Assembly: GCA_030148165.1 (NCBI GenBank)
Contig: JASBTZ010000008.1
Span: 1-64,000, forward strand
Length of the DNA: 64,000 bases
Reading direction: 5' to 3'
Source of the DNA: Bacteroidota bacterium
Lineage (GTDB): Bacteria > Bacteroidota > Bacteroidia > Flavobacteriales_D > Crocinitomicaceae
Every line of letters begins with the position of its first letter. Position 1 is the stretch's first letter. This document shows, piece after piece, positions 1,217 through 64,000 of this stretch. The notes under the pieces were generated by a model. The model had not been told where the DNA came from. It was given only the letters and a program-made list of their open reading frames with translations, and ran no database searches. A program made the translations under genes and the position numbers.

Positions 1217-4200
1217 TGAAAAAAGTAGTTGGATTATTAAGTTTCTTTTTATTCTTCATAAGTAGTTGGGGAAATGCTCAATGCTCCGTTGATATTGGTC
1301 CTGATGTTATCATCAATTGTGGTGATTCGGTAACAATAACCGCGATGGGATCAGGTAATGTCCCACTACTCCTGACAGATTTCAATAATAATCAGGCTGG
1401 TCCGGGATGGGCGTCAACCGGAGGCGCACAATTTTCGCAACCTTGTGGTCCTGGTGTAAATAATACCCCCTATTACTGGGCTTCAACTTCAGCAGGAACA
1501 CCAGCATTAACAACTGTTGGTTTTGATGTTAGTTGTGGTGCGACCATTACTTGGGATATGGTGTACTCCGTTCAAGGTGGCGCATCGCCATGTGAGGGAC
1601 CAGATTTACCGGATGAAGGTGTCACTTTTGAATACTCATTAGATGGAGGTATAACATGGATTCAGCTGGGTTATTGGGATCCAAATGGCGGAAACGACCC
1701 ATTCCTGACAAATTGGAATAGTTATACAATTACAATTCCACCGGGTGCGTGGGGGCCAAATACAATGTTCCAGTGGATTCAATATAACTCTTCAGGTACA
1801 TGTTGCGATAACTGGGGCATTGATAATGTATTAATCGTGCCGGGACTTTGCGGTGTGAATTGGGTGTATGATTGGTCAATGATTCCGGGAGCACCGGATT
1901 CAATAACACAGACAGTGGCTCCAATGACAACTACACAGTATTCGGTAATTCTAACAGATGGAACAGATATTTGCTATGATACTATCAATGTCATTGTTAA
2001 CCCATTATTAGCTGCAGCAACTACTTCGGCAACGGATCTAACCTGTCCGAACAGTGCAGATCTTGACGTACAGTTTACAAACAATAACGCTGGTTCAATA
2101 GTAGATGATTTTGACCCCACTATAGATATGGCTATGTGGTCTGATGTTCAGAACGGAACTCCCGGTACAGGATGTACTTCGATGTCGGGTAATGCACTGC
2201 ATTTTAATGGTGCAGGAACTAGACAGGTAACAACGGTTCCGATTAACACAACTGTATGTGGTATGGTAGATTTCTGCCTCTTTATGGGTAATACAGGTTC
2301 AGGTGGTGCACCTTGTGAGAATGCCGACGCAGGTGAAGACGTGGTTTTTGAGTATTCAACAAATGGAGGGGCTACATGGACGATTATCACAACATACGCA
2401 CATACGCTTTGGGATAACAACAACAGCTGGCAGTGTTTTACGCTTCCAATTCCGCCACCTGCTCAGACTACCAACACCATGTTCCAATGGAGACAGTTGA
2501 GTAACAGTGGTAATAATATGGATAACTGGGCATTGGATAATGTAGATATTGCATGCGCACCTCCAGCATTTGATTATGTTTGGACACCGGCAACAGGATT
2601 AAGTTCTGACACAGTTCAAGCGCCTAATGCATGTCCGGTTGATACCACAACATACACTGCAACTATTATGGATCCTTCATCAGGATGTTCAGCTCAAGCT
2701 AGTGTAACGATCAATGTAACTTGTATGTGTATGTTCACACAGTTTACAGCAAATGTGAGTAATTGTCTGAATGGAAATGAATTTGAAATTACAGGAGAAT
2801 TTGAATACGTAGAAGATCCGGGAACAGGAACAATTGTGGTTGAGGCCACCAATTCTTCCGGAACAGTCACTCAGGTGTTTAATCCACCATTTATTACACA
2901 ACAGTTATTTAATTACACATTAACGGGTCTGATTGCGGACGGTTCTCCGGTTACAGTAGAAGTCTATTTCTCAGATGATTTATCATGTACGAGTCAGATT
3001 GTAGATGTATCCCCCGTTTTACCGACACTAACAGCAATCACCGGAGGAGGAATTTATTGTCCGAACGATCCGATTACAGACATAACTGTTGACGTAACCG
3101 GTAATGGTCCATGGACAGTTGATTATACATTAGATGGAACACCTATGACTGCCACTGGAGCGGGTACATCAATTTCATTGGGAAGTGCACCTGGAGTATA
3201 TCAAATCGTAACGGTAAATGATTCTGCTTGTACGAATTCAGCAGTAGGACTAGACTCAATTGTTATTCATCCGGAACCAACGATTATTGACATGTTTGGT
3301 GGTGACACTTATTGTCAGGGGGATTCAATCTCCAATATCGAAATTGACATGACCGGAACCGGCCCATGGACAGTTAATTATACGATTGATGGAAATGCCA
3401 CATCTGCTTCTGGTACGAGTCCGGTACAATTGGGTACACAACCGGGGGTTTACGTGGTAACTTTGATTTCTGATGCGAATTGTTCTTCAAATGTGAATGA
3501 TACTGAATCGATCATTATTTCACCGGCACCGCCTGTATTTGCAGGAGCAGACTTTATTTCATGTGATGGTGATCCAATTACTCTTACAGCTACCGGAGCT
3601 CAAACATATGTATGGAATAATGGGGTAACGAATGGTGTTCCTTTCGTACCGTCTGTGACAACAACCTATACGGTAGAAGGAACGGACGCAAATGGTTGTA
3701 TTGCAACGGATGCCATTACAGTAACGGTAGAAGCTCTTCCAGACCCTCAATTCTTTGCTGACACTTTGCTGGGTTGTGATCCTCTAACAATAACTTTCGT
3801 TAATACTACTCCGGGTAACATGGCTAATTGTGAATGGAACTTTGGTGATGGAGGAACAGGAAATAGTTGTGATACAATCCAAAATATATACAATGGTAGC
3901 GGTTATTTCGATGTAACGCTGACAACCACATCGGTTAATGGTTGCGTTAATTCCATAACATATTCGGATTACATATATGTGGAGCAAGTACCAGAAGCGC
4001 TGTTCAATGTTTCAAGCCAGATTGTAATGAGTCTGGATCCGGAAGTGGTCTTTAGCAATCAAAGTACAGGAGCTGTTAATTACTTATGGGATTTCGGTGA
4101 TGGTTCTCCTACAACAACTGATGTGAGCCCTTCACATGCCTTCCCGGGAGAAGTAGATCATTCATATCCTGTTTGGTTATATGCATATTCGCCAATTGGC

Positions 4201-8107: not shown

Positions 8108-9262
8108 ATTTCGTTTCTGAAGATGCCAGATCAGGAAGAAAATAGCGGTAAGTGCGAACACTACTCCTATTAGGAAAACTGTCAATAAGGAAGCTAAAGT
8201 GTTGTCGTAGCTAATTAATGTTATAGTAGATCCGGCCATGATACCCCCTTCGAGTGCAATGAACAGGGTTCCTGCACCAATACCTCTTCTATCAAATGTC
8301 GACAAATCCGCTGTCCATGCAAATAGGGTAGGACTTGATATTCCCGTCGATACACCGAATAGAATGGCACCAATCGTATACATGATCCATTCCGTTGAGA
8401 ATGCGATTGTTGTCATGCTGATAGCCATAAAACTCATTCCTATTACCAGTGTAGGTCTCCTTCCAATTTTATCTGAAAGGCTACTGGCGAAAAGTCTAAT
8501 GAGAATAGTAGAAATCATGTAAAACCCAAAAAACCAACCCTTATTAGAAATTCCAAGAAATGTGGACAGATCTGGTGTAACTACGAATACTATACCTGTT
8601 GAGATAGCTGAACAAAACATGACCGTAGCTGCTGGTCGGACATTTGGCTCAAAGATTTCGTTCCAACTGACTTTGATGAAATCAGTTTTAAATCGTTGTG
8701 GTTGAGGAAGCGTCTCACTTAAAAATGAAATCATAATTCCCGCTAAAAGTGTAAAAGCTGTACCAACCATAAATAAGCTATTCAGTCCCCAATTATCAAC
8801 AATCCATGAGGAGAAAAACTGACCGGATCCGATGCCAACCGATATAAAGGTTCCCCAAATACCCATGCCGATACCGCGACGGTCTTCGGGGAGAATATCG
8901 GTGATCAGAGCTGTGGCACCAGTTGGCAGAAAACCTGCACTGATACCATGAATAAAACGTAAAACGAGGAAACTAAACAAACCCGTAAGCGGATAGATCA
9001 AGCTGACTATTGATGCAACAATAACACCCATAATCATTACTTTTTTTCGGCCGATCGTATCGGATAATTTTCCTGAAAAGGGTCTGGATAGTGCAGCAGT
9101 TATCGAAAATAGAAAATAGATGAGTCCTTTGAGGTCAGCTCCTCCCAGGTCAGAAATAAAATCATTTAACTCGGGGAGGATCACACTGAAACTGATCATG
9201 AAGAACATAAGTGCTAATGATAGCAACCAAAAGTTCAATGGATATCCTTTGAGTTTCATCAT
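8096..9262 (-). CDS. MFS transporter (drug-exporter-like)
   Basis: 388 residues with twelve predicted membrane segments. The loop 2-3 motif of the major facilitator superfamily is present in the N half (GKLSDTIGRKKVM) and repeats in the C half (SSLSDKIGRRPTLV), and a motif-C-like glycine-rich stretch lies between. Substrate is unknown; the size and motifs fit 12-helix exporters. Two ATG codons are adjacent (9262 and 9259). The second lies exactly five bases after a perfect -7 box, matching the spacing at four other genes in the window, so 9259 is the more likely start. Confidence 0.9.
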   Translation of the reverse strand: MMKLKGYPLNFWLLSLALMFFMISFSVILPELNDFISDLGGADLKGLIYFLFSITAALSRPFSGKLSDTIGRKKVMIMGVIVASIVSLIYPLTGLFSFLVLRFIHGISAGFLPTGATALITDILPEDRRGIGMGIWGTFISVGIGSGQFFSSWIVDNWGLNSLFMVGTAFTLLAGIMISFLSETLPQPQRFKTDFIKVSWNEIFEPNVRPAATVMFCSAISTGIVFVVTPDLSTFLGISNKGWFFGFYMISTILIRLFASSLSDKIGRRPTLVIGMSFMAISMTTIAFSTEWIMYTIGAILFGVSTGISSPTLFAWTADLSTFDRRGIGAGTLFIALEGGIMAGSTITLISYDNTLASLLTVFLIGVVFALTAIFFLIWHLQKRNSKT

Positions 9263-60499: not shown

Positions 60500-60553
60500 G
60501 CTGATTTTCAAGTATTTTTTCTGTGAAAGCGTGTAAGTGCTGTTAGTAACATT

Positions 60554-61348
60554 TTATTGTTCAGCTGCTGTATCAAAAGAATAACCAATTCCAATTCCAA
60601 CACCTAATACTCCAGAATCTTCCTGATTATTATACGTGTCTTCGTAGTGTATTAAAGTGGTTCGGCGTTGTTGATTGGATAATCCAGCGTACATATAAAG
60701 ATCAATAAAGATGTTTCTGTAACTTATTCTATTTCTTAATTCAAGTCCGCCTCCAAGTAAATCAATTTTCGCACTCAAAATATTAAACGTATTTTCATTT
60801 GGTTCTTCATAAATTATTTCGCCAGAATTAGAATCCCATTCTCCTATATACGACTTTTGATCTGTTTCTGAGTGGTTGAGTAATCGATCCCAAAAAAAAT
60901 GAGGTTCAATAAAGAGTTGATAGCCAATGCCGTTGTCACTCTTTACATTTGCGAATTGAAGTTGAAGACCAGTTTTTAATCCTAGATAATCAAGATGAAC
61001 CTTTGACTCATATTTGCGCCAATAGAGGACATTAGGACCGTAAATTGGATTTCCGTTGTATGTTTCCTGGTATTCGGTAGTTACCAAATCATGGATTCTT
61101 AAATATCTGAATTCAGCACTAAATCCGACTTTTGGGTAATGTGGTAATTTTGGATGTTCTGGCAGCAGGTAATCACACCGGATACCGTAGTAATCATTTA
61201 AATACAGGTTTCCTGAGCTGCTATTATAAAGCTTCGAATCATTGGTCATGTAACCATCTTTGTTGTGAGTTACAAAGGCTGACAGTGACAGTTGCGCAGT
61301 TATATGGTGTGCGATAATAAGTAGCGATATAGTTATCCAAATTTTCAC
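60554..61348 (-). CDS. Exported beta-rich protein (probable outer-membrane barrel), last gene of the repeat-separated array
   Basis: 264 residues. A signal peptide ends near ITAQ (residue 19). The rest is made of alternating strands with many aromatic residues (IFIDLYMYAGLSN, GVGIGIGYSFD near the end), like an outer-membrane barrel. No named family. It is the left-most of five minus-strand genes separated by related repeats; a repeat copy ends 52 bases upstream of its start. Confidence 0.78.
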   Translation of the reverse strand: MKIWITISLLIIAHHITAQLSLSAFVTHNKDGYMTNDSKLYNSSSGNLYLNDYYGIRCDYLLPEHPKLPHYPKVGFSAEFRYLRIHDLVTTEYQETYNGNPIYGPNVLYWRKYESKVHLDYLGLKTGLQLQFANVKSDNGIGYQLFIEPHFFWDRLLNHSETDQKSYIGEWDSNSGEIIYEEPNENTFNILSAKIDLLGGGLELRNRISYRNIFIDLYMYAGLSNQQRRTTLIHYEDTYNNQEDSGVLGVGIGIGYSFDTAAEQ

Positions 61349-61400
61349 GTATTAATTAAACGATGACACTATTGTATTGGTTGAGATGGTTATTGTAACT

Positions 61401-61610
61401 AGCGTTTTGCAGCTATACTATCGCCACACAGCTTGTCCGCCGTAGGCGGATCTCTACATGTTTAGTGATTGTAAGATAATGATTTGCCAACACTCCTTCA
61501 GCTTGCTGAACCTCCCGCTCGAGCTTCAGTCTTCGCAAGCTTCGCTTTGTCCTTCAGCTTTTCGAGCGACAACCTCGCTCGAGCTTCAGTCTTCGCAAGC
61601 TTCGCTTGCT
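61401..61610. repeat. Array repeat copy A (long, with internal duplication)
   Basis: Begins AGCGTTTTGCAGCTA (one mismatch to the other copies), then a TCCGCC-GTA-GGCGGA hairpin at 61436-61450 in place of the hairpin seen in copies B and C, then the conserved 40-base block at 61458-61497. A TTCAGC-TT-GCTGAA hairpin follows, and a 32-base CGCTCGAG...TTCGCTT unit occurs twice (61516-61547 and 61576-61607) at a 60-base period. Confidence 0.85.
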
Positions 61611-61624
61611 TAGATATAGGCAAC

Positions 61625-62305
61625 TTATTGTTGGATATAGTAATTAACGAGATTCCACACCTCATTACTATCAAGTAGTTCTTTACGTATTAATCCAACA
61701 TCCTGAGAAAAATAGTGGTTCGTTGATTGATTTCCTTCAACGTAATTCTTCAGTTCATGTATTCTAACCGTTTGACCAAACGTGGTTGACCCAATTGTGT
61801 AGCTATCCATGAGGGAGTCTATTGTAATTAAGTTTTCACTAAAAGTAGAGTTAAAAGCATAATCATATTCTCCTACACTTGGAATGAAGATAAAACATGG
61901 TGCTTCATGGACTAATACGCTGGGTATAAATATAGATCTCTTAACCTTGAGACAACGCTTGCAGATTGCACCTTGATTAGGGCAGTCACCAGGCGATGAT
62001 TGCGCAGATTCTGGCCAATAGTGATATTGATAGTCATAGTGAACACTATATGTTCTAACATCAAATTCATAAGTATTAGAATTATCCCATTGTTGAAATA
62101 CGTATACAGAATCTCTAATACCAGAGGTTTCTTCCTCATACACCCACCATGATCCTATTTTAAAGTCAAAGTACCGCTTGATGTCCTCAATTGGCTCACA
62201 TACATCACCAGCTCCACAATCACAATTATCTTGAGTGGTTTTATCCTTTTTACAACTAAAAAGAATAGCAAGAACTATTATTACTATGAACCAGTGATTT
62301 TTCAA
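61625..62305 (-). CDS. Lipoprotein of unknown function in the repeat-separated array
   Basis: 226 residues. Lipoprotein signal with the modified cysteine at C18 (ILFSCKK), followed by a cysteine-rich DNCDCGAGDVCEP stretch. The body contains FKIGSWWVYEEETSG and SVYVF, a pattern seen in many Bacteroidetes lipoproteins of unknown role. The stop lies 14 bases from repeat copy A, and copy B lies 62 bases upstream of the start. Confidence 0.78.
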   Translation of the reverse strand: MKNHWFIVIIVLAILFSCKKDKTTQDNCDCGAGDVCEPIEDIKRYFDFKIGSWWVYEEETSGIRDSVYVFQQWDNSNTYEFDVRTYSVHYDYQYHYWPESAQSSPGDCPNQGAICKRCLKVKRSIFIPSVLVHEAPCFIFIPSVGEYDYAFNSTFSENLITIDSLMDSYTIGSTTFGQTVRIHELKNYVEGNQSTNHYFSQDVGLIRKELLDSNEVWNLVNYYIQQ

Positions 62306-62367
62306 GCCCTATTTTTCTGATTTATTAAACGTGACACGCTCTGTGTACGTTGGTAATTATTGTCTAG

Positions 62368-62527
62368 AACGTTTTGCAGCTACACCATCTCCGCGGTATT
62401 TTCACCCTGAGCGCAGTCGACGGGTAAATGTTTTATGATTGTAAGATAATGATTTGTCAACACTCCTCCGGCATTATGAGCGACCACCTCGCTCGAGCTT
62501 CAGTCTTCGCAAGCTTCGCTTGCTCTG
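62368..62527. repeat. Array repeat copy B
   Basis: 160 bases. Begins AACGTTTTGCAGCTA, then an ACCC...GGGT hairpin with an inner CTG-AGCG-CAG (62404-62425), the 40-base block (62428-62467) and the CGCTCGAG...TTCGCTT unit (62490-62521). By my count it differs from copy C at about ten positions with no gap. Confidence 0.88.
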
Positions 62528-62548
62528 GCGCTGTTAAAGGTTTTTATT

Positions 62549-63079
62549 TTATGGTAAATAAGGTATTTCATTTTTGTCATTCTCATTTGTCTTAGACATC
62601 AACTCAAATTGATCCTTAGTCAGAAAAACTGCATGTAAGTCATTGCCACCATATAGCAGATAGAACTGCTCATCTATATTTTTTTCTTTCAATATGTTGT
62701 TGACAATTCTGAAAAAATTACAAGGTCCTGAATCCCAAAATTTCCCATTCGATAATTCTTCATTTGAATAGAGTTTAATTTTTTGTCCGTTGATTTTAAT
62801 TTCGAAAGATTGCTCATAATCATCGGTAGTTTGAACATCTAATTTTAACTCTTTTTTGGTCAATTTTTGATTCAATTGAGGTAGAAAGAAATCAAAATTG
62901 AATTCACATAATTCTTCAGCATCAATATAGGTTAAAACACCATCACTATAAAAGTCAAACTTACTATCTGCCGTAACCGAATTATTTTCATTAACCGTGT
63001 CGCTCTGTTTACTTATGTCGGATTTTTGCGAACAACTCACAACCATCAATGCACAAAGTATTATCAGGGGATGTCTCAT
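62549..63079 (-). CDS. Lipoprotein of unknown function in the repeat-separated array
   Basis: 176 residues. Lipoprotein signal with the modified cysteine at C16 (LMVVSCSQ), then a Ser/Asp-rich linker and a compact alpha/beta domain with no family that I recognise. The stop lies 21 bases from repeat copy B and the start 17 bases from copy C. Confidence 0.78.
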   Translation of the reverse strand: MRHPLIILCALMVVSCSQKSDISKQSDTVNENNSVTADSKFDFYSDGVLTYIDAEELCEFNFDFFLPQLNQKLTKKELKLDVQTTDDYEQSFEIKINGQKIKLYSNEELSNGKFWDSGPCNFFRIVNNILKEKNIDEQFYLLYGGNDLHAVFLTKDQFELMSKTNENDKNEIPYLP

Positions 63080-63096
63080 TTACTTTAATTACCTAT

Positions 63097-63256
63097 AACG
63101 TTTTGCAGCTACACTATCTCCGTGGTATTTTCACCCTGAGCGCAGTCGACGGGTAAATGTTTTGTGATTGTAAGATAATGATTTGTCAACACTCCTCTGG
63201 CATTACGAGCGACCACCTCGCTCGAGCCGTAGTCTTCAAAAGCTTCGCTTGCTCTG
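63097..63256. repeat. Array repeat copy C
   Basis: 160 bases with the same modules in the same order as copy B: AACGTTTTGCAGCTA, the ACCC...GGGT hairpin, the 40-base block (63157-63196) and the CGCTCGAG...TTCGCTT unit (63219-63250). The last unit carries several substitutions. Confidence 0.88.
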
Positions 63257-63275
63257 TTGCTGCTATAGGCATCAA

Positions 63276-63692
63276 TTATTCTGTTATGAGTTTTCTAAAA
63301 ATAAATTCATCAATGACCTTAACTGTGTCTATTTTGATTTGGTTTGTCTTGCCGCTTTTGGTTTGTCTTACAACAGTTTTATATTCTGAGGTCTGATCTA
63401 ATATTTTAATATCATGTGGATAGTCATAGCGATCAATTGGATTAAACGTCAAGAAAAAAATGGGCATAGAAATAATAATGCCCAGCACAATCCCAAACAA
63501 TCTAATATCTGGCACCTTGATAGTTGCTAGGCATATTATTGACATCACAATAGAAGAGTAATGAACAGACCAAAATAAATTGTAATAAATGGGAGCTATA
63601 AACTTCCATCCGTCACTGAACCAAATAAAAGCATACGTGAGCACAGTACTTATAATAGAAGTGAATAACAGAATTTTGTAGAAGACTTTCAC
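63276..63692 (-). CDS. Small membrane protein of unknown function in the repeat-separated array
   Basis: 138 residues from a GTG start (VKVFYKILLF). Three to four hydrophobic segments cover most of the first 95 residues, and the C-terminal 40 are basic and soluble. No known family. The stop lies 19 bases from repeat copy C; the start is 23 bases from the core motif of copy D. Confidence 0.72.
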   Translation of the reverse strand: MKVFYKILLFTSIISTVLTYAFIWFSDGWKFIAPIYYNLFWSVHYSSIVMSIICLATIKVPDIRLFGIVLGIIISMPIFFLTFNPIDRYDYPHDIKILDQTSEYKTVVRQTKSGKTNQIKIDTVKVIDEFIFRKLITE

Positions 63693-63704
63693 AGGGTTCT
63701 ATTT

Positions 63705-63753
63705 CAATTGCGTATAACGTTTTGCGGCTACGCAACGGTGCAGCTCGCAATTG
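63705..63753. repeat. Array repeat copy D core with inverted-repeat flanks
   Basis: Only the first 15 bases (AACGTTTTGCGGCTA, 63716-63730) match copies A-C. They lie inside a CGTT-TT-GCG / CGC-AACG stem with two bulged bases, itself enclosed by an inverted repeat CAATTGCG / CGCAATTG (63705-63712 and 63746-63753). Confidence 0.6.
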
Positions 63754-63883
63754 AGTTGTTTTTTCTAAGATACGAAAAGCGATTTAGCTTTGAGAAGTCA
63801 AGCGTTAGCGCCAGCCAATTTGGGTGAGAAGGATTAATTCATCGTAGAACGAAGGCTACGAAGGGGTGTAGGTGATGCTATAC

Positions 63884-64000
63884 TCACTTTTCAATTTGTT
63901 TCAGGCATGTTTCAACAAAGGAGGCGTATTGAACACTGCGAGTATATAGTACATAAAGATCATCACCTTGAACACTTATATATAGAGGCATTGGATGATA
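63884..64000 (-). CDS. 3' end of a fifth minus-strand array gene (truncated by the window)
   Basis: An open frame of 38 codons runs from the right edge to a TGA at 63884-63886. The residues look like real protein (YISVQGDDLYVLYTR, then FVETCLKQIEK). No family can be named. It fits the pattern of one minus-strand gene between repeats, since repeat copy D follows it. Confidence 0.5.
   Translation of the reverse strand, partial: YHPMPLYISVQGDDLYVLYTRSVQYASFVETCLKQIEK

Follow-up and report, generated by a model that had tools for sequence, protein, structure and literature searches.

Single genes on one strand, each separated from the next by a related repeat, occupy the end of a 64,000-nucleotide stretch (the window, C18:1-64000) from a Bacteroidota bacterium of the Crocinitomicaceae, whose 3.5 Mb genome is assembled in 18 contigs (C1 to C18). 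What kind of element do these genes belong to, and what would move it? A reading made from the letters of the window (the sequence-only reading) had likened gene plus repeat to an integron cassette and had held that any such system would be a non-classical one. The follow-up analysis indicates, with a probability of roughly 0.8, that these genes and repeats belong to a chromosomal cassette array of the integron type, moved by an IntI-related tyrosine recombinase without the IntI-specific insertion (I2).

From ~60.5 kb onward, single minus-strand genes alternate with attC-like repeats. The four repeat cores of the window (61402, 62369, 63098 and 63717) are each flanked by such genes, and the first of them is also the first core on C18, in agreement with the earlier statement that the initial 60 kb carry none. 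The array runs beyond the window, with further cores at C18:64519, 65894 and 66647. Genome-wide, the 14-base core was found in 42 places at ≤1 mismatch and the reversed control pattern in one; most of the 42 belong to single-orientation arrays and a few are isolated. About ten arrays were recognized, namely three on C3, two on C14, one each on C6, C8 and C17, the window array and C18:215k, besides a few lone sites. The repeats between single minus-strand genes are thus genuine and far more extensive than the sequence-only reading had noted. They are not scattered mostly without a gene between them, as the gene-strand open reading frame (ORF) is the longer one in 50 of the 62 listed spans.

Each site, read on the strand opposite the genes, has an attC-like layout, TAAC-GTTTT-GCRGCTA...body...TAGGTGC-T-GTTA. 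Because the sequence-only reading placed the start of the repeat at (A)ACGTTTTGC, it missed the boxes at the repeat ends, TAAC on the left and GTTA on the right. Its statement that attC cores are absent holds for the strict integron form (GTTRRRY/RYYYAAC), seen in 3 out of 47 boxes per side; nevertheless, R boxes exist, open with GTTA (36/47 start-side and 42/47 stop-side boxes) and behave as R boxes when tested for pairing. The inner arms vary among relatives yet remain complementary by eye (GCAAATA/TATTTGC, CAACTA/TAGTTG), and the L-arm extensions covary inside the site (3.26 of 4 vs 2.65 in shuffles, standard deviation 0.10; 38/47 sites). The shared palindromic block is a variant of the attC loop, and all of its 22 places (≤3 mismatches) lie inside array spans. 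Some loops carry tandem 60-base expansions of this block (C3:529044-529188, 531785-531989 and 536634-536838).

The evidence that carries the cassette interpretation comes from the outer boxes. Across a gene they pair at a mean of 4.43 of 6 variable bases over 35 spans (21/35 with at least 5), compared with 2.36 (standard deviation 0.20) in shuffles, none of 20,000 of which reached 4.43. Within their own site they pair at 2.49 of 6 over 47 sites, similar to shuffles (2.41). This first test omitted some sites without a called right end, including two window-array sites that then seemed unpaired. When it was repeated with all left ends that had been called, and with the attI-like array heads described below as further partners, the mean over 45 spans was 4.56 (29 with at least 5; shuffled 2.34, standard deviation 0.18); box matching had itself served to find 3 of the 9 heads used. 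In the corrected test, the window array scored 4, 6, 1 and 6 of 6, and its site at 63098 scored 5. An exception to the pattern occurs at L009:7647, where both boxes of the site match each other and the preceding box mismatches its neighbour. Complementarity across the gene, rather than within the site, is the pattern expected of a gene and attC body that were once circular; outer boxes matching across the gene and inner arms matching within the site would be expected if circular cassettes are excised and inserted. In addition, 38 of the 62 spans have a gene-strand ORF whose start is 3-65 bases away from the R box. Box pairing and ORF placement both support the earlier proposal that gene plus repeat forms one unit, and a site with paired R and L arms follows each gene, as in integrons.

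The arrays also possess candidate insertion platforms. A pattern built from array-side sequences matched six places in the genome, compared with none in the reversed control, and three further attI-like heads were recovered by box matching. The nine heads belong to the window array (C18:67188, 3.2 kb past the window edge), the three C3 arrays, C6, C8, both C14 arrays and C18:215k; the C17 array runs to its contig end. On C8, the attI-like site lies at the array head beside an integrase gene. Two attI subtypes can be distinguished, and that of L010/L016 is similar by eye to the integrase-side attI of one relative (G006). The C6 attI equals the integrase-side attI over 81 bases, as far as the last codons of the integrase gene, as if the integrase had been lost there.

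The sequence-only reading saw no integrase, and there is none in the window or in the 20 kb around its array (L009). One matching gene was found on another contig (C8:2697-3815), adjoining the C8 attI; it encodes 372 residues in an intact frame and is oriented in the same way as the cassettes. The sequence-only reading had proposed looking for a tyrosine recombinase or a REP-associated tyrosine transposase (RAYT) gene at one array end; a recombinase exists, on C8, and no RAYT gene is needed. No integrase occurs near the other eight attI sites, and tblastn over the array loci gave no credible remnant. The C8 integrase matches NF040815 best among NCBIfam models (239.5 bits, cut-off 220) and remains under the curated cut-off of the IntI family TIGR02249 (226.5 bits, cut-off 265). 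Four clade members scored 226.5, 211.1, 207.5 and 209.8 against TIGR02249, compared with 479.5 and 413.3 for true IntI. Its best sequence match in the PDB is an integron integrase (2a3v), about 30 residues of which have no counterpart in it. The spacing from KxxKDR to HxLRHS is 58-59 in the clade and 62-67 in those Xer rows that could be measured; 12 of the 15 IntI rows have 100-101, and three yielded no value. The clade integrases lack the I2 insertion. Six residues (R228, K253, H317, R320, H343 and Y352), which we take to be the catalytic ones of the family, are invariant in 16 aligned members, as expected of tyrosine recombinases.

In a tree of 92 proteins, with loci for the tree and the attI calls picked from search lists, the 15 IntI rows cluster together (100/100), with the C8 integrase outside the cluster. 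The 20 rows labelled as attI-bearing separate as a group from the remaining labelled rows (94/88), 19 of them within a core of 27 rows (100/99); the clade is split from Xer at 100/100, and 37 unlabelled rows lie around and between the groups. Since the IntI rows group without the clade integrase, the I2-less state would, on the evidence of this tree, not have arisen by late loss inside IntI; the tree gives no branching order between the groups. Most members have an extra N-terminal part of ~85-115 residues (AlphaFold mean predicted local distance difference test score 83), which weakly resembles XPB and HARP domains, both binders of DNA junctions. Fold matches were modest: Foldseek returned nothing at E ≤ 0.001 with this domain, and the HARP profile PF07443 matched 2 of 16 members weakly (best E 0.041). 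As L082 and L085 have an attI-like motif and lack the N-terminal domain, the domain cannot be the whole answer to how folded DNA is recognized.

The system is also present in relatives. Exact attC cores were found in 20 of 149 genomes and in 17 of 395 genomes of the phylum, the source genome being counted in both, and those loci of the integrase clade that carry names come from Bacteroidota. An attI-like motif occurs at 28 of 66 related integrase loci examined. Of 20 testable loci, 16 have 8-base boxes that match exactly across the first cassette, compared with 2.02 (maximum 7) for swapped k-mers; the attI pattern had been designed from the initial loci before it was widened, and the 16/20 incorporates an earlier 9/10.

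We infer that the cassettes recombine and that the I2-less integrase catalyses this on folded single-stranded attC. Each gene would travel as a circle comprising a cassette start TTANNNNNN, the gene, an R box NNNNNNTAAC and the attC body. The recombinase would join the folded attC bottom strand to attI between the G and the TTA of the box; with recombination at attI, new cassettes would enter there and older ones would be pushed away. A single integrase would serve all nine attI sites in trans. The system thereby appears to work like an integron, yet its integrase lacks the domain by which IntI is defined.

In a circular-attC model of 24 of the 47 sites, picked for exact box matches, the bottom strand is stabler than the top in 22 of 24, and the printed folds show a one-sided 4-base bulge (6/6) and an unpaired base (5/6). 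The R stem has ~9 pairs in the circular model and ~4 in the array, where it is shortened by a mismatch with the box of the neighbour. Should pairing of the stem be important, circles would be captured more readily than cassettes are excised from arrays. An attC finder that relied loosely on structure alone was discarded, with reversed-sequence nulls (211 and 216 matches) exceeding the real strands (111 and 75).

Several observations weigh against the proposed account. Seven of the 45 spans score 0 or 1 of 6, part of these being false left ends, and 38 of the 66 related integrase loci have no attI-like motif, some owing to a contig end. Since exact box matches were the criterion for picking the folded cassettes, pairing of their R stems is built in; the in-array fold of one intact attC is no better than shuffles (z -0.46), nor is that of a 150-base piece of the window site with core 63098 (z -0.95). 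An IntI I2-type insertion is called essential for integron function in a passage of PMC8138268, which is at odds with this integrase acting on folded attC. One cassette found in three arrays has a different attC body in each copy, for which simple circle insertion gives no explanation. Moreover, no instance of mobility was observed, and the 20 relatives with sequence at the corresponding place lack the hemN-tRNA-attI neighbourhood; across 22 hemN loci, tRNA and attI occur in the source genome's locus only, and one relative's locus stops 2 bases past hemN.

Some of these points would also suit other explanations. The arrays may be relics, once-active integrons that are now immobile and held by inertia, in keeping with the degenerate right ends of some window sites and with the attI sites that have neither a nearby integrase nor a remnant of one. 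Runs of six-of-six box matches in the C6, C8 and C14 arrays and the intact frame of the one integrase make this rather unlikely. It is more doubtful still that genuine cassettes are mobilized by a different recombinase, either a host XerC/XerD-like protein or an unseen canonical IntI, with the I2-less protein being a neighbour that has another job. The genome does encode other tyrosine recombinases, a gene may be missing from an assembly of 18 contigs, and the IntI insertion is called essential in PMC8138268; however, the I2-less protein adjoins attI and a matching first cassette in the 16 of 20 testable loci mentioned above, and TIGR02249 exceeded its cut-off in none of 149 genomes, a result that is weak alone because no control genome gave a match either.

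A dispersed family of the repetitive extragenic palindrome (REP) or miniature inverted-repeat transposable element (MITE) type, inserted between ordinary chromosomal genes, would account for numerous sites with palindromic blocks in common. Repeat insertion would not yield boxes that match across the gene and not within the repeat, which refutes this explanation in the main, nor would it yield attI-like heads on nine arrays, and the confinement of the palindromic block to array spans (22/22) is not the behaviour of a dispersed REP/RAYT palindrome. Such an origin is thus hardly credible.

Compared with known systems, the integron-type arrays favoured here share with sedentary chromosomal integrons of the Vibrio type the single-gene cassettes in one direction with an attC after each gene, the attI at the array head with a tyrosine integrase beside it, and R boxes complementary across the cassette (one Vibrio atypicus cassette was checked by eye). 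They differ in the integrase, which lacks I2, falls outside the IntI clade and points in the same direction as the cassettes, as well as in the rarity of strict GTTRRRY boxes, the one-sided central spacer in the printed folds, and the ratio of nine attI-headed arrays to one matching integrase gene. The window array, with no integrase in the 20 kb around it, also qualifies as a cluster of attC sites lacking integron integrases (CALIN), but carries an attI-like head, a feature that the CALIN label does not require. The integrase resembles XerA and archaeal Xer, simple tyrosine recombinases (NF040815, 5hxy, 4a8e), in its best NCBIfam match and in having no IntI insertion, and is unlike them in its linkage to attI and cassette arrays and in the extra N-terminal part of most members.

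Earlier reports of integrons in Bacteroidota exist (list in PMC8618304); for Bacteroidetes proper, a passage of the IntegronFinder 2.0 paper (PMC9024848) names a single complete integron, that of Salinibacter ruber. A literature search that covered neither preprints nor most subscription papers yielded no account of I2-less integrons or of Bacteroidota integrons of such a kind, and nothing on several attI sites and tRNA. Tentatively, and with somewhat less than even confidence, Bacteroidota could hold a second, overlooked integron class, in which integrases never had I2 and recognize folded attC otherwise (perhaps through the N-terminal HARP/XPB-like domain), with many attI platforms, several of them downstream of tRNA genes, sharing a single integrase; this class might be a pre-I2 intermediate or an independent origin of cassette capture. 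Surveys that require the IntI-specific domain would miss such systems, and the cassettes represent a store of unknown genes.

The features of the window array are listed in the table. By eye, the R box of the truncated attC pairs with the left box at 61394-61403 at 8 of 10 positions, and the partner of the GCTATACTCA box is the left box ahead of C18:64519.

Table. Features of the cassette array within the window (coordinates on C18)
Feature	Position	Strand	Remarks
Truncated last attC of the array	60533..60551	+	L'' arm and R box GTAAGTGCTGTTAGTAACA; similar to right-end consensus
Cassette gene, 264 aa	60554..61348	-	No Pfam match at E 0.01
attC-like site 1, core 61402	61392..61622	+	Right end degenerate; palindromic loop block
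Cassette gene, 226 aa	61625..62305	-	No Pfam match at E 0.01
attC-like site 2, core 62369	62357..62542	+	Right box 4/6 paired across next gene
Cassette gene, 176 aa	62549..63079	-	No Pfam match at E 0.01
attC-like site 3, core 63098	63086..63271	+	Right box 5/6 paired across next gene
Cassette gene, 138 aa	63276..63692	-	No Pfam match at E 0.01
attC-like site 4, core 63717	63705..63886	+	Right box GCTATACTCA 6/6 paired across next gene
3' part of next cassette gene	63887..64000	-	Whole gene continues to C18:64510

For cassette contents, 41 proteins were scanned across the arrays. Among the first 25 of 37 families listed, MORN_2 occurs in three proteins and Por_Secre_tail in two, with PAS/histidine kinase, TPR, LRR, GldN and others in single proteins. 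The Por_Secre_tail and GldN domains, like the named loci of the integrase clade, point to a Bacteroidota host. A defence theme was considered and set aside, as PADLOC gave three families with one member each among the 41. One 196-aa cassette protein that was searched is absent from all 148 other genomes. The cassette present in three arrays (L009:7648-8184, L013 reverse 2837-3376 and L020:3355-3886; 91-94% alike to the L020 copy) has no ORF of 60 aa in its C6 copy and adjoins attI in two of the three; short pieces of it match in five relatives. It is perhaps a regulatory cassette, or the differing attC bodies perhaps reflect exchange inside attC. Contigs break inside arrays at the C6 right end, the C8 left end and the C17 left end, and joining C8 reversed to C17 would preserve one direction.

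Some attI sites lie near tRNA genes. A tRNA gene in the same direction is found ≤1.6 kb upstream at five of the nine sites and ≤620 bp upstream at four (P about 1e-8, with distance limits set after the distances were seen). ARAGORN on 23 integrase loci found a tRNA in one. At L016:6097-6487, the 3' end of tRNA-Gln is directly repeated over 17 bases between the tRNA and attI, resembling the trace left by an element inserted at a tRNA gene. Expression of cassettes by read-through from tRNA promoters was also considered, and is weakened by hairpin and T-run shapes seen by eye just 3' of the tRNA genes at L010, L012 and L016, and less clearly at L013. Beside attI, an inverted repeat of the ACAACATAAT...ATATGTTGT type occurs at L014:2649-2685 and at L009 near 8227-8265, possibly providing extra integrase-binding or regulatory sites.

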